Positions 8,491 through 27,827 of a DNA stretch of 33,131 bases are shown here, one piece after another. The stretch comes from a virus, in IMG/VR virus record IMGVR_UViG_3300029286_000155, positions 1 to 33,131 of that record. The stretch is one strand, 5' to 3'. Under the pieces are notes generated by a model. The model did not search any database and was not told the origin of the DNA. It saw only the letters and a list, made by a program, of their open reading frames with translations. The first letter of the stretch is position 1. Every line of letters starts with the position of its first letter. The translations under genes were made by a program, and so were the position numbers.

Positions 8491-8522
8491 TAATAAAAAT
8501 CTCCCATATCAATCTATTTATA

Positions 8523-8531
8523 ATTATAGCA
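8523..8531 (-). promoter_or_regulatory. Late-type -10 promoter (TGCTATAAT)
   Basis: On the minus strand the bases read TGC TATAAT TATA, about 33 bp upstream of the 8490 start, with a normal ribosome site between. No TTGACA-like hexamer is seen 16-18 bp upstream. It belongs to a set of six similar -35-less boxes upstream of structural genes. It would re-initiate transcription for the gp25, J, I and fibre genes. Confidence 0.6.
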
Positions 8532-13795: not shown

Positions 13796-13839
13796 AAAAA
13801 TCCTCCATCTAAAATCTTAAATCTATACAATCTAGGATA

Positions 13840-13848
13840 ATTATACCA
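13840..13848 (-). promoter_or_regulatory. Late-type -10 promoter (TGGTATAAT)
   Basis: The minus strand reads TGG TATAAT TAT upstream of the chaperone/tape-measure/hub unit. The hexamer 17 bp upstream reads TAACAA, which does not match TTGACA. It is divergent to the sigma70 promoter of island A about 100 bp away. Confidence 0.62.
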
Positions 13849-13944: not shown

Positions 13945-13973
13945 TTGACATTGTAACTAAAATCTGTTACAAT
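13945..13973 (+). promoter_or_regulatory. Sigma70 promoter, island A
   Basis: TTGACA (13945-13950), 17 bp, TACAAT (13968-13973), with an extended -10 TGT just before it. The first gene starts at 14000 after an AGGAG site, so the leader is about 20 nt. Near-consensus, so strong and likely early with host RNA polymerase. Confidence 0.88.
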
Positions 13974-13999: not shown

Positions 14000-14518
14000 A
14001 TGAAGAATTTAAAATTATTATTATTAGTAACTTTGGTTTTAATTCCTTTATCAGCATGTTTAGTTCAGTATCAAAAAGGAACTATTCAAGAAGAAACTAG
14101 ACCTTACGTAAATTCATTTTTAAACGAATGTTATACTTACGGAGTTGATTGTTCTAAAATAGGTCAAGTAACAGTTGAAATTGAAGAATTATCTGACGAC
14201 GAATTAGCTGGAGATGGAACAACCCTTGCTATTTGTACAATGTATATTACTGCTGGAATGTTTCTTCCTACAATGATAAAAACTGTTAGAATCTCTCCTG
14301 AATTTTGGTATGATGCTGACGAGGATTCACGATTATCTGTTGTATATCATGAACTTGGACATTGCGTATTAGATAGAGCACATAACGACGATATGATTGA
14401 TAATGAAACTCCAGCAAGTATAATGAATACCTTTTTAGGAGACTATCCTGCTTACTACTTTAGTCCAGAAAATAAAGATTATTATATGAGAGAACTATTT
14501 CAAGTAGAGGAGAACTAA
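14000..14518 (+). CDS. Exported lipoprotein zinc metalloprotease
   Basis: Residues 1-20 are a lipoprotein signal peptide: MKNLK, a leucine-rich core, and the lipobox LSAC with Cys20 as the lipidated residue. The residue after it is Leu, which in enteric bacteria allows outer-membrane sorting. Residues 117-128 read HELGHCVLDRAH, a zinc-binding HExxH motif with a further His at 128. A downstream SIMN (140-143) could be the methionine turn of metzincin-like enzymes. Spacing of the third His is one residue longer than classic metzincins, so the clan is not certain. The protein would sit on the envelope and cut proteins there. It is followed within one base by a small gene, and shares the island with two more exported proteases. 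Substrate unknown. Confidence 0.8.
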   Translation: MKNLKLLLLVTLVLIPLSACLVQYQKGTIQEETRPYVNSFLNECYTYGVDCSKIGQVTVEIEELSDDELAGDGTTLAICTMYITAGMFLPTMIKTVRISPEFWYDADEDSRLSVVYHELGHCVLDRAHNDDMIDNETPASIMNTFLGDYPAYYFSPENKDYYMRELFQVEEN

Positions 14519-14519
14519 G

Positions 14520-14750
14520 ATGAGTAACGACGACCAAATCAAAAAAGCATTGTTAGAAGATTTAGCAACAGAAATCGTAGAAGAAGTTTGCGTAAAGTTA
14601 GATAAAGCACACATGGGATTTTCTTACGATTATGGCATTATCAGAAGATTTGTTTTTGATTATATAGATAAAGGAATGACTGATTCACAGGAAATTATGG
14701 AAAACTTATTGATGGACCATATTGTTGAAGAATTTTGTGGAAATGCTTGA
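14520..14750 (+). CDS. Small acidic protein, function unknown
   Basis: A 76-aa, mostly helical, acidic protein (LLEDLATEIVEEVCVKLDKAH, later IMENLLMDHIVEEF). Nothing identifies a family. It starts one base after the stop of the lipoprotein metalloprotease gene and uses the AGGAG that lies within the end of that gene, so the two are co-translated. Lack of a signal peptide puts it in the cytoplasm. Confidence 0.75.
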   Translation: MSNDDQIKKALLEDLATEIVEEVCVKLDKAHMGFSYDYGIIRRFVFDYIDKGMTDSQEIMENLLMDHIVEEFCGNA

Positions 14751-14775
14751 CTTTGAATTGATTTTATGTTATGAT
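14747..14775 (+). promoter_or_regulatory. Sigma70 promoter
   Basis: TTGACT (14747-14752), 17 bp, TATGAT (14770-14775), preceded by TGT. The -35 box overlaps the last codons of the upstream gene. It drives the gene at 14799. Confidence 0.82.
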
Positions 14776-14798
14776 AAGTATATTGGAGGTTGATTAAA

Positions 14799-15020
14799 AT
14801 GAGGTACACAGTAAAAACAAGAGGTCACTTAATGGCTCAAGTTGCAACTTTAACTGATGCTGTAGAAGTAGCTATTTTTGTTTCCCGTAAAGAGGAATCA
14901 GAAACTTACATCTACGACAAATTAACTTTAGTTGCTAGAGTAATTGGAACTAATGTGAGCATCTTGGACAAAGAAAAATTCCTTAAATCAGTTAATCAAA
15001 GTGTAACGGTAAAGGAGTAA
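14799..15020 (+). CDS. Small hypothetical protein
   Basis: A 73-aa protein, MRYTVKTRGHLMAQVATLTD..., with an alpha/beta look (strand, helix, two strands) and no recognisable family. I chose ATG 14799 and not the TTG at 14790: the GGAGG ribosome site ends at 14789, so TTG would have no spacing while the ATG has 9 nt. It has its own promoter 24 bp upstream and is followed by the zinc protein gene after 3 bp. Confidence 0.75.
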   Translation: MRYTVKTRGHLMAQVATLTDAVEVAIFVSRKEESETYIYDKLTLVARVIGTNVSILDKEKFLKSVNQSVTVKE

Positions 15021-15023
15021 CTT

Positions 15024-15461
15024 ATGCTTAGAGACTGTAAAAATTGTGGAATGAGTCCTTCTTACAATACAAACAGTAGTGGGTATACTGAAGTTTCGTG
15101 TTGGAATTGTGGAACTAGAGAAACTGGATATACTTATGACGAAGCAGAAAAAAATTGGAATGATGCACATGGTTATCCTATAACTTTTACTAATAGTGGA
15201 AATACCGCACCTGTAGGAGTTAGTGGTGGAAATGGCGTAGGATGTACTTTTAATGGGTCTGGAAGCTGTGCTGGATGTAACGGATGTGATGCAATTAAAG
15301 ACACTCAATTTGAAAGCACAGACTCGAGAGGAGAAATCAAAACTTGTGCTAATTGTGGAAGAGGATGTTTTTTATTAACCACAGTATATTGCGAACCAAA
15401 AAAAGAATCTATGAAAGTTTCTGAAGTATGTAATTCATGGATTTATAAATATAAAAAATAA
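15024..15461 (+). CDS. Lar-like zinc-ribbon protein (possible anti-restriction)
   Basis: Residues 5-8 (CKNC) and 26-29 (CWNC) with the following EAEKNWNDA (40-48) match the Lar / restriction-alleviation zinc-ribbon layout, where CPxC...CxxCG is followed by 'A...WN'. Lar from the Rac prophage reduces type I restriction by promoting host methylation. Beyond residue 70 there are two further cysteine clusters (74, 82, 85, 88 and 108, 111, 115, 123, 136), so the protein is about twice the usual length and may bind more than one zinc. It is expressed with the 14799 gene (3 bp apart). An early anti-restriction role fits the position but is inference. A different zinc-ribbon function is equally possible. 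Confidence 0.6.
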   Translation: MLRDCKNCGMSPSYNTNSSGYTEVSCWNCGTRETGYTYDEAEKNWNDAHGYPITFTNSGNTAPVGVSGGNGVGCTFNGSGSCAGCNGCDAIKDTQFESTDSRGEIKTCANCGRGCFLLTTVYCEPKKESMKVSEVCNSWIYKYKK

Positions 15462-15464
15462 TAC

Positions 15465-15493
15465 TTGACATTATATGGTAATTAGAGTATAAT
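15465..15493 (+). promoter_or_regulatory. Perfect consensus sigma70 promoter
   Basis: TTGACA (15465-15470), 17 bp, TATAAT (15488-15493). Both boxes are full consensus. Drives the exported ClpP-like and trypsin-like protease genes; a GGAGG ribosome site lies at 15508-15512. Confidence 0.92.
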
Positions 15494-15517
15494 ATAAAAA
15501 GGTAAAAGGAGGAATTT

Positions 15518-16258
15518 ATGAAGATGTTTTTGGTTCTAGTAGCTCTGATGTCTACGGTAGCAATGGCTTCCAGCAAAAAAGTTGTATTGCAAGAAGGTAA
15601 GTTTTTCTCATTCAGTGAAGAAGTTACTGACTCACTTGCTCAAGATTTTACAAGATTTATGCTTACAACAGATGAAAAGGAAGTTTATGTTTATATAAGT
15701 TCGCCAGGTGGAGACGTAGTTGCTATGTCTACAATGATTGGAATTTTAAGAAATACTGACATAAAAACTATATGTATAGCTAACTTTGCAGCCTCAGCAG
15801 CATTTATGTTCTTTGAAAATTGCACAGAAAGATACATGACTTATGATGGCGTAATAATGTCACATAATGCAGCAGGTGGTTTTATGGGAGAATTTCCTCG
15901 AGTAGAGAGTCTATTTAATATGTTCAATGGAATAGTAGTTGCTCATGAAAAAGTTATAGCAGATAGATTAAAATTAGCTTATGCTGATTATAAAGCTATG
16001 ATAAATAATAATCTTTGGATGAATATCGACCAAGCAAATAAACTTAATGCTAATGATGGCGAAGTTTATGTAACATGTCCAAAAGAATTAGTTCTTGCTA
16101 CTGAAATTAAAGATGTAGCAGTATGTGGAATGTTTGGATGTGAATATCTTACAATGGAAATATCAAAATGCCCTCTAATAACAAAACCAATTAAAATTTT
16201 TGAATCAAAAGAGAAAAAAGAAATAGACACATCTATGTTTTTTACAACTGAGAAATAA
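15518..16258 (+). CDS. Exported ClpP/SppA-like serine protease
   Basis: Residues 1-17 form a short Sec signal peptide (MKMFLVLVALMSTVAMA, likely cut after AMA). The mature part has the ClpP/crotonase-type layout: VYVYISSPGGDV (57-67, oxyanion strand with GG), the serine region NFAASAAFMFF (89-99, Ser93), and VIMSHNAAGG (112-121, His116). The position expected for the catalytic Asp reads MINNN-LWMN, so I see no Asp there. The enzyme may use a dyad or be altered. ClpP itself is cytoplasmic. An exported relative is unusual in a phage. A C-terminal extension has four cysteines (187-218) that could form disulfides outside the cytoplasm. It is followed after 9 bp by a trypsin-like protease gene, in the same operon. 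Confidence 0.78.
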   Translation: MKMFLVLVALMSTVAMASSKKVVLQEGKFFSFSEEVTDSLAQDFTRFMLTTDEKEVYVYISSPGGDVVAMSTMIGILRNTDIKTICIANFAASAAFMFFENCTERYMTYDGVIMSHNAAGGFMGEFPRVESLFNMFNGIVVAHEKVIADRLKLAYADYKAMINNNLWMNIDQANKLNANDGEVYVTCPKELVLATEIKDVAVCGMFGCEYLTMEISKCPLITKPIKIFESKEKKEIDTSMFFTTEK

Positions 16259-16267
16259 GGAGATTAT

Positions 16268-17122
16268 ATGTTAAGGAAACTATTTATAATATCATTGTTT
16301 GCATGCTCGATAACCTTCTACACTCAACATGCTACAAGAAATATAACTCAAATAGAATCACAGAATCAAGAATCAGTTTTCATGGCAATCAATACAGTAG
16401 ATATGGCGAGTGGGACTGCATTTAAAGTAGAATACAATGATGTACAGTTTTACTTAACTAATGCCCATGTATGTGACACAGCTCCTTTATTAGTATTAAA
16501 GAATCCTAAACATAAAGTTGTAGTAAGTGTCGTGAGACTTGATTTCAATTTAGATTTATGCATGATGCAACTTGCTTATCCAGAAACTGATGACGAGATT
16601 CCAGCCATAAAAATAGCTAAAAATGAACTCACTGATATTCTAATATACACAATAGGATATGGAGCAAGAGAGTACATGGCACAGGACGGAGTAATTTTTT
16701 ATACTAAAAATATGGACGTAAGTTTTGATTATTATTTAGTAAGTTATTCAGATTATCTTGAATTAGCAACTAGAATTGGCAGCGTAGAGAAACTTGAAAG
16801 TGAACTTAAACTTTACTGTGAAGCTAGAGGAACAGCCTTTAAATTAGAAGTAAAAATAAACAAAAAGAAAAAAGAAGTTGAAGTTATGTGTTTAGGTAAC
16901 ATGTCTCTAACTAGAACAAATTTTAAAACATATGGTGGAGCTAGTGGTAGTCCGGTATTTAACGGCAATGGCGAACTTATTGGAGTAATCAACAGCGGAC
17001 AAGACTTCTTTCCACAAGGAACTAATGAGGTATTAAACTTTATAAAGTTACCATTCTCTGACCTTGGAAACTTTATACCACTCTCGTCAGTAATTAAATT
17101 TATAGAAACACAAACAGACTAA
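16268..17122 (+). CDS. Exported trypsin-like serine protease
   Basis: The first ~25 residues are an export signal (MLRKLFIISLFACSITFY). A weak lipobox-like LFAC at 10-13 is present, but its hydrophobic core would be very short. The catalytic triad of the trypsin/HtrA fold is visible: TNAHVC with His67, LDLCMM with Asp96, and GGASGSPVF with Ser226, followed by NGELIGVINSG. This is a complete protease, with an unusual lysine-rich insertion at about 170-212 containing two cysteines (183 and 208). No PDZ domain. It is co-transcribed with the ClpP-like protease. Expected to act in the periplasm or outside the cell. Substrate unknown. Confidence 0.85.
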   Translation: MLRKLFIISLFACSITFYTQHATRNITQIESQNQESVFMAINTVDMASGTAFKVEYNDVQFYLTNAHVCDTAPLLVLKNPKHKVVVSVVRLDFNLDLCMMQLAYPETDDEIPAIKIAKNELTDILIYTIGYGAREYMAQDGVIFYTKNMDVSFDYYLVSYSDYLELATRIGSVEKLESELKLYCEARGTAFKLEVKINKKKKEVEVMCLGNMSLTRTNFKTYGGASGSPVFNGNGELIGVINSGQDFFPQGTNEVLNFIKLPFSDLGNFIPLSSVIKFIETQTD

Positions 17123-17132
17123 GGAGGATTTT

Positions 17133-17258
17133 ATGGCCACATTTGCAGCAGTTATTGGATTATTAAGTTTCTTTTTTCTAGCGATTTTAGCAGACGCTAT
17201 TATGGTAAACAAATTACCTAAGACAAAGAAAAAAGCAGTTAAAAAAGCTAAGAAGTAA
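17133..17258 (+). CDS. 41-aa membrane microprotein
   Basis: ATG 17133 follows AAGGAGG with good spacing, 10 bp after the trypsin-like gene. The 41-aa product has one hydrophobic segment (about residues 4-24, AAVIGLLSFFFLAILADAIM) and a strongly basic tail (KTKKKAVKKAKK). This gives a single-span protein with its positive end in the cytoplasm. Small basic membrane proteins of phages include holins, lysis regulators and superinfection-exclusion proteins. Nothing here decides between them. Confidence 0.7.
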   Translation: MATFAAVIGLLSFFFLAILADAIMVNKLPKTKKKAVKKAKK

Positions 17259-17267
17259 ATCAAAAAT

Positions 17268-17341
17268 AGGTCACTAGTTCAATGGTAGAACGAAAGTCTC
17301 CAAAACTTTTGATGTGGGTTCGATTCCTACGTGACCTGCCA
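17268..17341 (+). tRNA. tRNA-Trp (CCA)
   Basis: A full cloverleaf folds by eye: acceptor AGGTCAC with GTGACCT, D-stem GTTC/GAAC, anticodon stem AAAGT/ACTTT with loop CTCCAAA (anticodon CCA), T-stem GTGGG/CCTAC with TTCGATT loop. Discriminator G and CCA end are encoded. The length is 74 nt. The anticodon reads UGG (Trp) only, so it does not imply UGA recoding, and genes here use TGA as a stop. It lies in the early island A, directly upstream of a zinc-ribbon gene. Confidence 0.93.
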
Positions 17342-18616: not shown

Positions 18617-18645
18617 TTGACTATTTACATGAAGCCTGATATAAT
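18617..18645 (+). promoter_or_regulatory. Sigma70 promoter, island B
   Basis: TTGACT (18617-18622), 17 bp, TATAAT (18640-18645), with an extended -10 TGA. The first gene starts at 18662 after an AGAGG site. The leader is only about 10 nt. Confidence 0.87.
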
Positions 18646-18661: not shown

Positions 18662-19063
18662 ATGCCAGAAACTAGGTTCAGGGTTTGGGATTCCGAAGAA
18701 AAACGAATGAGAGATGATTTTCTAATCAAGGCAAATGGAGAATTATTAATTTTGGATAAGGAGAATCATACTGAAGGAAGTCTTAATTTAAAGGTATTCT
18801 TACTAGAAGATATGGAAATGTTCACAATTTCTAAACATACAGGACTTATCGATGCTAGAAAAAAGGACATATATGAGGGCGATATTATGAAGTCCAATCA
18901 CCCATATGACTCCGTTAGAATTGTAGTATGGACAGGAAGTTCTTATCAATTAAAAAGCATATCCTATAATGCAGTTATTTCCAATACAGAATGTATAGAT
19001 TTTATATCTCAAGTTGTAATAGGAAACATATTTGAGAATCCAGAACTTTTAGGGAAAAAATAG
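18662..19063 (+). CDS. YopX-family protein
   Basis: The sequence has the YopX layout: RFRVWDSEEKRM (6-17) at the start, a middle strand region, FTISKHTGLIDARKKDIYEGDIMK (54-77) as the family's 'fTGlkDknGkeIyEGDiv' block, then VRIVVWTGSSYQL, and VVIGNIFENPELL at the end (116-128). YopX proteins are common in phages of many bacteria. Their role is unknown, and they usually lie among early genes. This is the first gene of island B, joined directly to the next gene (stop and start adjacent). Confidence 0.88.
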   Translation: MPETRFRVWDSEEKRMRDDFLIKANGELLILDKENHTEGSLNLKVFLLEDMEMFTISKHTGLIDARKKDIYEGDIMKSNHPYDSVRIVVWTGSSYQLKSISYNAVISNTECIDFISQVVIGNIFENPELLGKK

Positions 19064-19498: not shown

Positions 19499-19716
19499 GT
19501 AATTGGAGAAAATATGTAGACCCACTATTCACTCCTCCGGAAAGTAGACTTTTGACTAGGGACCGCATACCTTTTATTTGCCCAATTTGTCAGAAGGTAA
19601 CTGTACTCTATGTTCAAAATGTAAGACAAAAAGTAGCTAAAGACGGCAAGTATATTTGTAGGTCATGCTCGGGAAAAGAAACTTATGCTAGATTTAAGGA
19701 GAAAAACAAAAAATGA
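19495..19716 (+). CDS. Small zinc-ribbon protein
   Basis: A 73-aa protein with CPIC (29-32) and CRSC (55-58), the four cysteines of a zinc ribbon, and a basic end. The part between (VTVLYVQNVRQKVAKDGKYI) would be the two connecting strands. Likely nucleic-acid or protein binding. It overlaps its upstream neighbour by 4 bases and its downstream neighbour by 4 bases, so translation is coupled through the operon. Confidence 0.75.
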   Translation: MSNWRKYVDPLFTPPESRLLTRDRIPFICPICQKVTVLYVQNVRQKVAKDGKYICRSCSGKETYARFKEKNKK

Positions 19717-20138
19717 AGTATAGAACTAATTATACCAAACTAGCAGCTTTCTTAACATTTGATATGCATATTCATGTTTTTGATATGGATTATTGGGGAT
19801 ATTGCGTTAAATCTAAAGGGAAAAGAGTCCCAATCTACGAACCATTTATCTTCATTTCCCCTAAGTTAAGTTATAAATACAAATACTTCACATTACTTCA
19901 TGAAATGGGTCACATCTTTTATTTCAATTCCAAAGACAAAATGATGTGGACAAAAAGGGATAGAAACGAAACAGAAGCTAATATGTTTGCAATGAGCATG
20001 TTAAAGACAGATGTGGAGAAAGAGCAGTTTAAGAAGTTTTATGGAAAAGCTGGAATTTACAATGATAATCGTTGTGCATCTTGGAGAGAAATCATAAATG
20101 AATGGGCCGACAAGGACGAGATTCCAGAAAGCAAATAA
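19713..20138 (+). CDS. ImmA/IrrE-like metallopeptidase (M78)
   Basis: Residues 63-67 read HEMGH in the setting LLHEMGHIFYF, and RNETEANMFAMSML (84-97) follows 17 residues later, with Glu88 as the likely third zinc ligand. This is the ImmA/IrrE order HExxH...E.EAN.FA. Such enzymes cut phage repressors or stress regulators (ImmA cuts the ICEBs1 repressor, IrrE cuts DdrO). No repressor with a helix-turn-helix is next to it here, so the target would be encoded elsewhere or in the host. It is the last gene of island B, one base before the convergent endonuclease stop. Confidence 0.83.
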   Translation: MKYRTNYTKLAAFLTFDMHIHVFDMDYWGYCVKSKGKRVPIYEPFIFISPKLSYKYKYFTLLHEMGHIFYFNSKDKMMWTKRDRNETEANMFAMSMLKTDVEKEQFKKFYGKAGIYNDNRCASWREIINEWADKDEIPESK

Positions 20139-20139
20139 G

Positions 20140-21894
20140 TTATTTTATAGTTAGTTTCCAACACTTCTTACCACAATCCCATACTTTATAAAATTTATGC
20201 TCCACAGCCCATTGAGATTCTGTAATTTCCTTAGGACATCCTGTATGGGATTTTTGCTGAGATTGTTTTGAGAAAGCTTTTCCATTATGAGTATAAAAAT
20301 AATCAGGTTTATATTCTGCAACTAAAGTAAATCCTGCATTTATATACATGTTTCCAACTGGAGAGAATCTATTATCAGACCACGTTAAAAGTTCCATAGG
20401 AGGCAGTGATTTGAGCATTTTAGATAAGCCACCTACTATAGTATATTTAGAAAAACAAACCCTATTAAGCACTAAGTTAGCCTTAGTTTTGCGATGATGC
20501 TGACCCACAGACAGAGCTGCTACTATTTCTCCATTATATAAAAGTCCTCTAAGATGTAAGTTAGATACAGCTAATCCTTGAATATGGTTTTCTTTGATAA
20601 AGGACTTAATTAGATTAACATCTTGAGTAAGAGTACATTTTCTTGCGAATATCTTCTGAGAAGGAGTTATTAATTTAAGAAGGAATTGTTTAATTTGAGG
20701 TTTATGATTTTCCCACTCATGTTCAAATATAGTGTAAAGTTTATAGCCTTGGTCAAGACATGACTTGTATTTGTTATAATGGTAGTTTTTATGACTCAGA
20801 CATTGCTCACTATGCCATTTTAAACCATTAAATTCTATAGCAATCTTTAAATTTGGAATTAAAATATCCACTTCTTTTGGAGATATCAAATTTCTATCAT
20901 TTCTTAAAATACGATAATTAGTGTGTTTCTCTAGGAAAGTAGCAAGTTCTATCTCTTGTCCAGAAGTAGAAGAGTCTTTTGAAATTAAATCAAACCTATT
21001 ATTAGAATGAAGAATTTCAGAGATAGTTTTCTCAGAACACTTAAAAGTTTTTGCAACTATTGGTGTACCTGCAAATAACTTTGTATCCTCTAGGTACTTT
21101 ATTATTTTTTGACAAAATTCTTCATGAGTTTTACAATTATTTTTTGCCAGTAGTCTATCTCTAGGTTTTTGCTTTAAATCCAATCTATTCTTTACCACTA
21201 GAACTCTTAGTATGTAATCTTTAGAACAATTAAAGTTTTGTAGAGTTTCCTTAGAACTTGGAGCATTTTTAGTTTCTATTAAATACGTCATTACTTTATC
21301 ACAAAACTCATCATATGTTTTGCAGTTATTTTTATATAAAACAACTTTGACAAAAGGATTATTAGCTAGAGCTTTAGCTTTTACACCAGGAATCTGGGAA
21401 ATGTTATCTACTCCATATTTTAATTTAATTGAATTCATAACTTTCTTATAATTATCTTTATTGGTAATTCTCATTTTTTCTTGATTTTCTGGAGTTAAAA
21501 AAACATTAGATACCCCATACTTCTTTAAGCAAGTTTCTTTTCTTTTTAGATTAGTAGAATTCAATTTATTTGTACTATCTACTCCATATTTTTCTAAACA
21601 TCTTTTTTTATAAGCATCCTTTACCGTTTTAGATTTAAGAGGAGAATCTACACCATACCTCTTTAAGCAAGTTTCTTTTCTTTTTTTAGTAGCTTTAGCT
21701 GAACTATTTTTAATAGAACAACTCTTACATACGTAGATACCATGTCTAGCTAAAGTTGCATCTATCACACCTATTCTTTTTCCCTCTCCCCATGTTCCAC
21801 ATTGCTGACACATTGCATCTACTTTAGTATTTTGTACTAATTTTTCAGAATCAGATTTAATGTCCACATTTTTATATTTTAAGTTTAATTTCAT
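20140..21894 (-). CDS. Vsr-like homing endonuclease (I-Bth0305I type)
   Basis: The protein has an N-terminal zinc finger (Cys29, 32, 56, 59), then four KYGV-type repeats (about 79, 102, 125, 159; DNA-binding NUMOD-like), then two related helical repeats (NNCKTYDEFC and NNCKTHEEFC, about 189 and 252). A PD-(D/E)xK nuclease core follows: EVDILIPNLKIAIEFNGLKW, with Asp343, Glu354 and Lys359, and HSE at 361-363, like the Vsr/EDxHD fold. The C-terminal 170 residues resemble the acetyltransferase-like extension found in these proteins. It lies between sheath and tube modules as a separate unit, with its own promoter and a terminator before it, as expected for a selfish element. Its ATG is six bases after the -10 box, so its mRNA may be leaderless. 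Confidence 0.82.
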   Translation of the reverse strand: MKLNLKYKNVDIKSDSEKLVQNTKVDAMCQQCGTWGEGKRIGVIDATLARHGIYVCKSCSIKNSSAKATKKRKETCLKRYGVDSPLKSKTVKDAYKKRCLEKYGVDSTNKLNSTNLKRKETCLKKYGVSNVFLTPENQEKMRITNKDNYKKVMNSIKLKYGVDNISQIPGVKAKALANNPFVKVVLYKNNCKTYDEFCDKVMTYLIETKNAPSSKETLQNFNCSKDYILRVLVVKNRLDLKQKPRDRLLAKNNCKTHEEFCQKIIKYLEDTKLFAGTPIVAKTFKCSEKTISEILHSNNRFDLISKDSSTSGQEIELATFLEKHTNYRILRNDRNLISPKEVDILIPNLKIAIEFNGLKWHSEQCLSHKNYHYNKYKSCLDQGYKLYTIFEHEWENHKPQIKQFLLKLITPSQKIFARKCTLTQDVNLIKSFIKENHIQGLAVSNLHLRGLLYNGEIVAALSVGQHHRKTKANLVLNRVCFSKYTIVGGLSKMLKSLPPMELLTWSDNRFSPVGNMYINAGFTLVAEYKPDYFYTHNGKAFSKQSQQKSHTGCPKEITESQWAVEHKFYKVWDCGKKCWKLTIK

Positions 21895-23876: not shown

Positions 23877-23953
23877 CGTTTTATCTCCTTAGTACGTTTT
23901 TAACATTCATCATAAATCTATGAATCCAATAAAAATCTCAGATTCATATCATA

Positions 23954-23962
23954 ATTATATCA
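23954..23962 (-). promoter_or_regulatory. Late-type -10 promoter (TGATATAAT)
   Basis: Minus strand TGA TATAAT TATG, about 78 bp upstream of the sheath gene. The hexamer 17 bp further up reads TAATGT, so no -35. The transcript has a ~70-nt leader. Confidence 0.65.
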
Positions 23963-25761: not shown

Positions 25762-25779
25762 TATATTCCCTCTGACATA

Positions 25780-25788
25780 ATTATATCA
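25780..25788 (-). promoter_or_regulatory. Late-type -10 promoter (TGATATAAT)
   Basis: Minus strand TGA TATAAT TATG, about 19 bp upstream of the 25761 start. The hexamer 17 bp upstream reads TCATAG, not a -35. Shares 13 bases (TGATATAATTATG) exactly with the sheath promoter. Divergent to the island C promoter. Confidence 0.67.
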
Positions 25789-26208: not shown

Positions 26209-26460
26209 ATGTTTTTAGGTTGGTTAGGTAGCACATTACTAGCATTATGTGGGATTCCTCAAGCCCTTGCATGTTATAAGCAAGGTCACTCTAATGGGAT
26301 TTCATGGACAATGCTAATTATGTGGCATTCAGGGATTCTTTGTATGATGATTTATATATTACCAACTAGAGACGTTCCCCTGATATTGAGTTACGCTGTG
26401 AGTGCTGTTACTATTTCGGTTATGCTGTTTTATAAATGCTTTCCAAGGGAGACAAAATGA
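26209..26460 (+). CDS. SemiSWEET/PQ-loop family membrane protein
   Basis: The 83-aa protein has three predicted membrane segments (about 3-22, 32-51, 55-76) and the family's Pro-Gln at 17-18 (ALCGIPQALACYK) followed by the SxGISWxM stretch (28-35). SemiSWEETs form three-helix bundles that dimerise to make a sugar transporter. Length and pattern fit a complete SemiSWEET. A phage copy is unusual. It could move sugars or modify membrane permeability, but the substrate is not visible. Its stop codon overlaps the start of the sigma factor gene (ATGA). Confidence 0.82.
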   Translation: MFLGWLGSTLLALCGIPQALACYKQGHSNGISWTMLIMWHSGILCMMIYILPTRDVPLILSYAVSAVTISVMLFYKCFPRETK

Positions 26461-27827
26461 AAAATTCCAAAGAATTAATTTCATCTTATTTATCTAAGTT
26501 AAACAATTATCCTTTACTTACAAAAGATGAGGAAGTTGAGATAGCTAAAAAATTAGATAAAAATGAGACTGCCATAATTAAAAGGAGTGCCACATCAACT
26601 CTTTTTTTACAGGCTATTTTATCTTCCAAGAAGAAATTAGTTAGTGACCATTCCTATCTTTTTAAACTACTTAAAAATGTAGAAGGGGATTCATTACAGA
26701 ATGAAAAAGAGGATGCTTACGCAGCGTGTCAAGCATTATTTATAAAGATTGAAAATTACCTTGAAAAACCAATAAAAGGTGAAAAAGAGTTAATATTATC
26801 ATCTTTACTTAAACTAGCATTAACCAATTTCGCCATTACAAGTTTTATTAAGCCAATAGAAGAAACCTGCAAAATACTGAAAGATTATGAAAAAAGAACA
26901 AAACATAATTATGAAGTTCTACAAGTAAACAATGCTGTAGAATACAATAAATTAGTTTATGAATTTTATGAAAATAGTGCTCCCAAGAATTCTAAGATTA
27001 TAAACGCACTAAATGACCAAGAAGAAATCTCAAATTATTACCTTCATAATAGATTAACTCCAACTCAGATTAAAGTAATAAAAACATTGGGAAGTGATAT
27101 AGTAAAGATAAAAAGACAAGTTGAAGCCGATAGAAATAAGTTAATAACATCGAATTTAAGATTAGTTGTCTCCAGAGTAAGGTTATTTCTCAATAAGGGG
27201 CTAGATTTCGATGATTTAATTCAAGAGGGTAACATTGGGTTAATGAAAGCTATAGACAAGTATGACTACCAAAGAGGCATAAAATTCGGCACATATGCTA
27301 CTTGGTGGATTGACCAGACTATTCAAAGGGGGGGTTCTAATAAATCAAGAATCATTAGAGTTCCAATCTACTTACAGGATTTAATTCCCAAAGTAGAAAG
27401 GGCAGTAATGGAACTCGAAGCAGAGAATGGTAAAACGCCCACGATAGAGGAGATTTGTAAACACTCTGAACTTACAAAGGAGCAAGTCTCTTCTATCATT
27501 TCTTTAGTCGGTCAACCCATTTCTATTGAAACTCAGATTTCTCAAGACTTACAGTTAAAGGATATGATTATAGATATGAGCGAGGATAATGACCCATACA
27601 ACTCAGTAAGTAAGAAATTGCTCAAAGATAAAATTAGGGAAGTTCTTGCTCAATTGCCTGAAAGTTATCAAAAAATATTGAGATTAAGATTCGGAATTGG
27701 AGAAAGCAGACCAATGAACTTAGACGAAATTGGACATCAAGTAGGTCTTTCAAAAGAAAGAATCAGACAAATCCAAAATGAGGGATTTGCTAAACTGAGA
27801 AAGAAATTAAAAATAGAGGAGAAATGA
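26457..27827 (+). CDS. Phage-encoded RpoD-like sigma factor
   Basis: The protein shows sigma70 region 1.2 (KELISSYLSKLNNYPLLTKDEE, about 4-25), region 2 (NLRLVVSRVRLFLNKGLDFDD, then LIQEGNIGLMKAIDKYD and FGTYATWWIDQTIQRG, about 224-293), region 3 (IRVPIYLQDLIPKVERAVMEL), and region 4 (LPESYQKILRLRFGIGESRP, then LDEIGHQVGLSKERIRQIQNE, about 400-445). All are intact, so it should recognise both -10 and -35 elements. The segment between 1.2 and 2 (about 40-215) is long and unlike host sigma factors. I chose ATG 26457 over an in-frame ATG at 26436: AGGGAG is correctly placed for 26457, and this overlaps the previous stop. It is the candidate to direct phage transcription. Confidence 0.93.
   Translation: MKNSKELISSYLSKLNNYPLLTKDEEVEIAKKLDKNETAIIKRSATSTLFLQAILSSKKKLVSDHSYLFKLLKNVEGDSLQNEKEDAYAACQALFIKIENYLEKPIKGEKELILSSLLKLALTNFAITSFIKPIEETCKILKDYEKRTKHNYEVLQVNNAVEYNKLVYEFYENSAPKNSKIINALNDQEEISNYYLHNRLTPTQIKVIKTLGSDIVKIKRQVEADRNKLITSNLRLVVSRVRLFLNKGLDFDDLIQEGNIGLMKAIDKYDYQRGIKFGTYATWWIDQTIQRGGSNKSRIIRVPIYLQDLIPKVERAVMELEAENGKTPTIEEICKHSELTKEQVSSIISLVGQPISIETQISQDLQLKDMIIDMSEDNDPYNSVSKKLLKDKIREVLAQLPESYQKILRLRFGIGESRPMNLDEIGHQVGLSKERIRQIQNEGFAKLRKKLKIEEK

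Follow-up and report, generated by a model that had tools for sequence, protein, structure and literature searches.

What might a phage gain from encoding three proteases that leave the cytosol of its host? The question is raised by an island on the + strand (14000-17122) of the IMG/VR virus record IMGVR_UViG_3300029286_000155, analysed here over its whole length of 33,131 bases (the window; 39 genes, possibly a fragment). The island encodes a lipoprotein zincin (14000-14518), an exported ClpP-like protein of peptidase family S14 (15518-16258) and an exported trypsin-like protease of family S1 (16268-17122). All three open reading frames (ORFs) are confirmed, each with a good Shine-Dalgarno site. 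Export signals (hydropathy and lipobox), together with domain and motif matches, also support the original prediction of three exported proteases of differing catalytic type. They lie together in the sense that all fall within the island, but they are not contiguous, as three small genes (14520-15461) separate the zincin from ClpP. In our best reading, to which we assign a probability of about 0.4, the three form an early protease set, held in the envelope, that would cut envelope proteins of the host by a mechanism that we infer.

Export signals and catalytic sites

Among the 39 window proteins, a hydropathy heuristic assigns a clear N-terminal export signal to just three globular ones, namely the zincin, the ClpP-like protein and the trypsin. 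The only other strong N-terminal hydrophobic segments belong to two small transmembrane (TM) proteins. Since the sole clearly exported globular proteins of the 39 are these three proteases, their clustering appears to go beyond chance.

The zincin (172 amino acids, aa) has the sequence MKNLKLLLLVTLVLIPLSAC and the lipobox LSAC at Cys20, which fits the pattern [LVI][ASTVI][GAS]C. Further on it has HELGH at 117-121, a third histidine at 128 and a SIM motif with Met142. It has no Pfam match above cut-off. A degenerate DNA motif for HExGHCxxxRxH matched 64 loci in IMG/VR; among bacterial genomes, chiefly those of Bacteroidota and Bdellovibrionota, it matched at least 119. With tblastn the window zincin aligns to the phage loci at E values as low as 6e-14. 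Among 43 aligned family members H117, E118, H121, H128, M142 and E165 are invariant and SIM is conserved. A lipobox is recognised by pattern in 44 of 67 phage zincin copies, with Asp at +2 in none. The zincin is a member of a large predicted lipoprotein family (>60 phage and >100 bacterial members) found in environmental phages, Bdellovibrionota and Bacteroidota; at the Bdellovibrionota loci viewed, the zincin genes do not resemble those of prophages.

The AlphaFold2 (AF2) model of the zincin has a predicted local distance difference test score of 90.7 and a predicted template-modelling score of 0.83. Foldseek returned nothing for it at E<=1e-3, so the fold was not identified by Foldseek alone. 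In the VIA re-alignment of the model, metzincins alone fill the top rows (Z from 9.3 to about 7), with MMP-11 in first place (Z 9.3, root-mean-square deviation 3.2, 123 residues). The HExxH helix, a downstream His, the Met-turn-like SIM and the predicted fold are common to the zincin and metzincins such as MMPs, karilysin and snapalysin. Unlike these enzymes, it is a mature lipoprotein of about 150 aa, and its zinc motif, HELGHCVLDRAH, departs from the consensus HExxHxxGxxH/D: the third His lies at +11 from the first instead of +10, a spacing identical in all 43 aligned members, and the conserved Gly is absent. Because the motif is one residue off the metzincin spacing, we describe the modelled protein as metzincin-like and do not class it as a metzincin.

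The trypsin-like protein (284 aa) carries a hydrophobic export signal at its N-terminus, where a lipobox (Cys13) is possible but short, and matches Trypsin_2 at 51.3 bits (cut-off 27.6; E 2.7e-13). Its triad, His67-Asp96-Ser226 with the serine in GASGSP, is complete and resembles that of exported S1 proteases (Trypsin_2, glutamyl endopeptidase-like). The protein differs from these in being phage-encoded, in its HVC/DLC cysteines and in a long insert that precedes the Ser loop. The triad residues and Cys69, Cys98 and Cys208 are invariant in the window trypsin and 12 phage homologues. These 12 fully readable phage trypsins all have an N-terminal export or TM segment, and a profile built from them finds the window trypsin at E 1.2e-24. 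The invariant cysteines would fit an oxidising compartment.

The ClpP-like protein (246 aa) has a short signal peptide, a Pfam CLP_protease match of 47.5 bits (cut-off 20.2; E 2.5e-12) and an AF2 monomer model that Foldseek places in the ClpP fold (E 5.6e-11); the nearest full-length viral model, A0A6J5KYR7, is 28% identical. It is similar to family S14 in sequence and fold. The Ser-His-Asp(Glu) triad is incomplete: Ser93 and His116 are kept, and Asn165 occupies the acid position where relatives in the subfamily have Glu. ClpP1 of Listeria has been described as Ser-His-Asn (PMC12900304), and activity is thus possible in the window protein, though it may be low. A motif scan recovered an exported ClpP subfamily in other phages (L059, L198, L199, L201, L204/205, L206, L207, L211), whose aligned members have in common the signal peptide, AAS, MSHxAxGG and a C-terminal CPL; the window protein shares their C-terminal extension (Cys187/Cys218-Pro-Leu). 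An alignment-based ClpP scan had matched 600 junk stretches. ClpP and the ClpP-like head-maturation proteases of phages share with it the Pfam domain, the Ser and His residues and the fold; it differs from them in having a signal peptide, a Cys-containing C-terminal extension and an Asn at the acid position and in having no head genes beside it. A displaced head-maturation protease was rejected given the signal peptide, the export-specific relatives and the nearby structural genes, which are tail genes on the opposite strand.

Promoter classes and timing

On the - strand of the window lie the structural genes of a myovirus, encoding the sheath (E 1.7e-41), baseplate and other virion proteins; the sheath shares at most about 26% identity with those of known phages. 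Islands with other genes are interspersed on the + strand among these structural operons. In the protease island, sigma70-type promoters are found on the + strand at 13945-13973, upstream of the zincin (TTGACA-17-TACAAT; 11/12 consensus, with TG before the -10), at 14747-14775 (TTGACT-17-TATGAT; 10/12, extended -10) and at 15465-15493, upstream of the ClpP gene (TTGACA-17-TATAAT; a perfect 12/12). The trypsin gene has no promoter of its own and starts 10 bases past the ClpP stop, which places it in the ClpP operon. Each protease gene thus has a strong sigma70 promoter or shares an operon with one, as had been proposed. Six full -35/-10 sites occur in the window, all on the + strand and five of them upstream of island genes (13945, 14747, 15465, 18617, 25916); with one mismatch allowed their number is only modestly above chance, and the weight lies in their placement.

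The structural operons are preceded by a different signal. The motif TGNTATAATTAT, a likely late promoter, has four exact matches on the - strand (8520-8531, 13837-13848, 23951-23962 and 25777-25788) against 0.14 expected. They are mostly without a -35, and each closely precedes one of the structural operons on that strand (8490, 13795, 23876, 25761); near matches precede two further operons. The phage encodes a full-length RpoD-like sigma factor in another + strand island (26436-27827), which is a candidate for this promoter class. Judging from these signals, the protease and sigma-factor islands are presumably transcribed by a host-type polymerase and the structural genes by another class, and the protease genes are probably transcribed along with the sigma-factor gene, before the structural genes. 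The two promoter classes, host-like sigma70 sites on the + strand and another class for the structural operons on the opposite strand, point to early expression of the island and support its earlier description as an early one; they also weaken a pure lysis role in this phage.

Action of the set could involve expression early in infection from host-type promoters and retention in or near the host envelope. The lipidated zincin would sit in a membrane, facing the periplasm or the cell surface, while the trypsin and ClpP-like proteins would act in the periplasm, and the three would jointly cut host envelope proteins. The likeliest benefit would be the stripping or processing of surface and periplasmic proteins, that is, phage receptors and envelope-stress or defence factors, with proteolytic superinfection exclusion and envelope remodelling as the outcome. 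A cultured precedent is Llp of phage T5, an early envelope lipoprotein that acts on the receptor (PMC9586334). The zincin resembles superinfection-exclusion lipoproteins of this type in being a phage lipoprotein that is envelope-directed and, as its promoter class suggests, early (PMC9586334). Unlike the zincin, Llp is not a protease and blocks FhuA by binding. The observations behind the envelope-cutting set are the three export signals, the two promoter classes and the homologous exported proteases that recur in other phages.

Exported proteases in other phages

Single-protein searches of IMG/VR with the three proteases and the sheath found no relatives and were too strict; degenerate DNA motifs worked. 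In 50,697 phage records, tblastn of the proteases gave no zincin or trypsin match and, for ClpP, just weak matches to head proteases. The statement that phages rarely encode envelope-directed proteases fits public phage records, at BLAST level, but not environmental phages.

In these environmental phages exported proteases are recurrent and do occur in sets, in which only two pairings are linked, that of zincin with exported ClpP and that of trypsin with subtilase. The zincin gene lies directly upstream of an exported ClpP gene in four related phages (L059, L201, L206, L211). The slot that holds this pair in L211 holds a trypsin in L254, at a syntenic position within kept surroundings (an HNH gene at 45% and a secreted KKGE-type protein at 33% identity, with two further genes; the 194/162-aa gene in these surroundings is 34% identical). 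From this replacement, the proteases look like partly interchangeable modules and not like subunits of one complex. Several zincin phages also have exported or lipoprotein subtilases, at times adjoining a trypsin or an exported ClpP, among them compact forms at L251:8847-9617, L252:2911-3762 and L253:3304-4128 (Peptidase_S8 E 3e-22 to 2e-24). Three other records (G020, G046, G059) have a zincin, a ClpP and a trypsin in order within 11 kb; they were rejected as the same trio, their ClpP being without an export signal.

We compared 50 zincin-bearing records with 50 control records of similar total length, in counts that ignore relatedness and include some near copies (G028, G061, G063). Trypsin_2 domains above cut-off occur in 13/50 against 5/50 (one-sided Fisher p 0.033), S8 domains in 12/50 against 4/50 (p 0.027), and both together in eight zincin phages and none of the controls (p 0.003). 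The distance between trypsin and subtilase genes is shorter than random (combined p ~0.002-0.003), and the linkage of zincin and subtilase is marginal (p 0.03-0.12).

These patterns bear on whether the window genes are instead three independent morons, that is, unrelated early genes with separate jobs that settled in a permissive gap between structural operons and are adjacent only incidentally. Similar + strand islands in the window do hold unrelated genes (YopX-like, M78 peptidase, PQ-loop, sigma factor, tRNA-Trp), the zincin gene comes with a promoter of its own and with three small genes between it and ClpP, and the ordered trio is not conserved. Yet every globular protein of the window with a clear export signal is a protease, and the three lie close together; co-occurrence and slot replacement in other phages also speak against independent morons. 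We regard this explanation as doubtful, and it is, with a function in lysis, one of the two chief rivals of the envelope-cutting set.

As late lysis accessories, the proteases would sever lipoprotein tethers and cleave proteins of the outer membrane or periplasm, causing the envelope to fail once the endolysin has acted; they would work alongside or instead of spanins. Spanins and disruptins are phage outer-membrane lysis proteins and are not proteases. Like them, the window proteases would be located in the envelope, and some relatives have spanin-like neighbour genes; unlike theirs, the window promoters are of early type. The claim that the island is not a lysis cassette is sustained in the window, where island genes have no Pfam or PHROG lysis-family match and no holin, endolysin or spanin was found beside the proteases. 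The sole TM protein beside them is a 41-aa single-TM protein with a basic tail (17133-17258, +; from hydropathy), directly 3' of the trypsin gene and without a Pfam or PHROG family match.

The same claim fares less well among relatives in other phages, some of which lie near endolysin genes. An exported trypsin in G042 (L255) has a TM 'VTK..DGT' protein and a GH24 endolysin (E 4.6e-64) as its neighbours, and one in G036 (L260) has a TM neighbour of similar kind and, at a distance of about 0.85 kb, an M15-type endolysin (E 1.3e-10). In L198 about 3 kb separates the exported ClpP from a GH24 lysozyme-like ORF. The exported ClpPs of L059, L201 and L211 are followed by a TM coiled-coil protein with weak Rz-like spanin matches (E ~0.01-0.02) and by a secreted coiled-coil protein whose TM segment is C-terminal. 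The latter, with the motif KKGExxPxxGxLF, is found near an exported protease at L211:6824-7210, L201:1463-1834, L059:6025-6399 and L254:12087-12515; it has no database match and is possibly spanin- or holin-like. Set against these neighbours are the host-type sigma70 promoters of the window genes, which differ from those of the structural operons, the lack of lysis genes beside them and the weakness of the spanin-like matches. A lysis function is unlikely in our judgement for the window proteases, though part of the protease family may have one.

Exported phage protease sets are real, recurrent and, as far as searched, undescribed; literature searches on proteases exported by phages, and on those of bdellophages, brought up nothing relevant. 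A broader proposition, possible but less than even, is that many uncultured phages, perhaps those of predatory bacteria, are armed with interchangeable exported proteases (lipoprotein zincin, exported ClpP, trypsin, subtilase) that work together on the host envelope. Such an arsenal would amount to a protease-based class of envelope takeover, or of outer-membrane lysis, for which no cultured phage has been described. The attacks on the envelope described for phages involve binding proteins, muralytic enzymes and spanins, and a recurrent set of exported proteases, if true, would add envelope proteolysis to them. The zincin and exported-ClpP families have no curated family in the libraries searched, are present in many environmental phages and are directly testable by expression in laboratory strains.

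Host, weighing of the evidence and other island genes

Compared with bacterial genomes, the window sigma factor reaches 206 and 200 bits in two Bacteriovoracales, 178-191 in other Bdellovibrionota, 173 in two gammaproteobacteria and 127-138 in Bacteroidota; most PDB RpoD/SigA sequences score 174-196, the RpoD of 7xya reaching 196. A quickly built tree, many of whose forks are open, intermingles phage zincins with those of Bdellovibrionota and places most Bacteroidota zincins in separate groups. The closest sequence to the window zincin (34%) is from a Bacteriovoracaceae genome. Together, the sigma scores and the zincin tree suggest a Bacteriovoracales-like host.

If the host is such a predator (Bacteriovoracales/Bdellovibrionota), the proteases could be auxiliary predation or nutrition genes that speed the digestion of prey protein during infection. 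The affinities of the zincin and the sigma factor would agree with this, and a mix of four protease types (zincin, S1, S8, S14) would be well suited to digesting protein in bulk. The sigma factor, however, scores only a little lower against other proteobacteria, no relative of the sheath was found in 241 genomes of the Bdellovibrionota phylum, several of the proteases are membrane-anchored and not secreted, and the window trypsin is only weakly matched in that bacterial class. We consider this the least probable of the explanations.

Several points weigh against the envelope-cutting set. The trio was not found in the same order in the loci examined in other phages, and in the 13 phages with both, zincin and trypsin lie no closer than expected at random (Fisher-combined p 0.35-0.71); a single conserved unit in this order is not supported. 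ClpP has an Asn at its acid position, and outside the cytosol it would have no ATPase partner, none being expected in the periplasm. The endolysin and spanin-like neighbours in other phages fit lysis better. In addition, export is called from lipobox patterns and the hydropathy heuristic, early timing is deduced only from the promoters and the host assignment is not certain.

The three small + strand ORFs between zincin and ClpP comprise a 76-aa cytosolic one in the zincin operon (14520-14750; no significant Pfam or PHROG match), a 73-aa one (14799-15020; no Pfam or PHROG match) and a Cys-rich, zinc-ribbon-like one of 145 aa (15024-15461), with a weakly Lar-like N-terminus (Lar_restr_allev E 0.01, below cut-off). 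A tRNA-Trp gene follows in a + strand island at 17268. The next + strand island holds a YopX-like gene (18662-19063), behind the sigma70 promoter at 18617, and in the same run a fourth peptidase, of the IrrE/ImmA (M78) type (19713-20138; Peptidase_M78 E 7.1e-10), predicted to be cytosolic. PADLOC reported nothing in the window beyond generic trypsin and M78 similarity. A homing/HNH endonuclease gene on the - strand (20140-21894) adjoins the sheath gene. Just before the sigma-factor gene lies a gene encoding a PQ-loop membrane protein (26209-26460; E 2.3e-8), an odd cargo for a phage.

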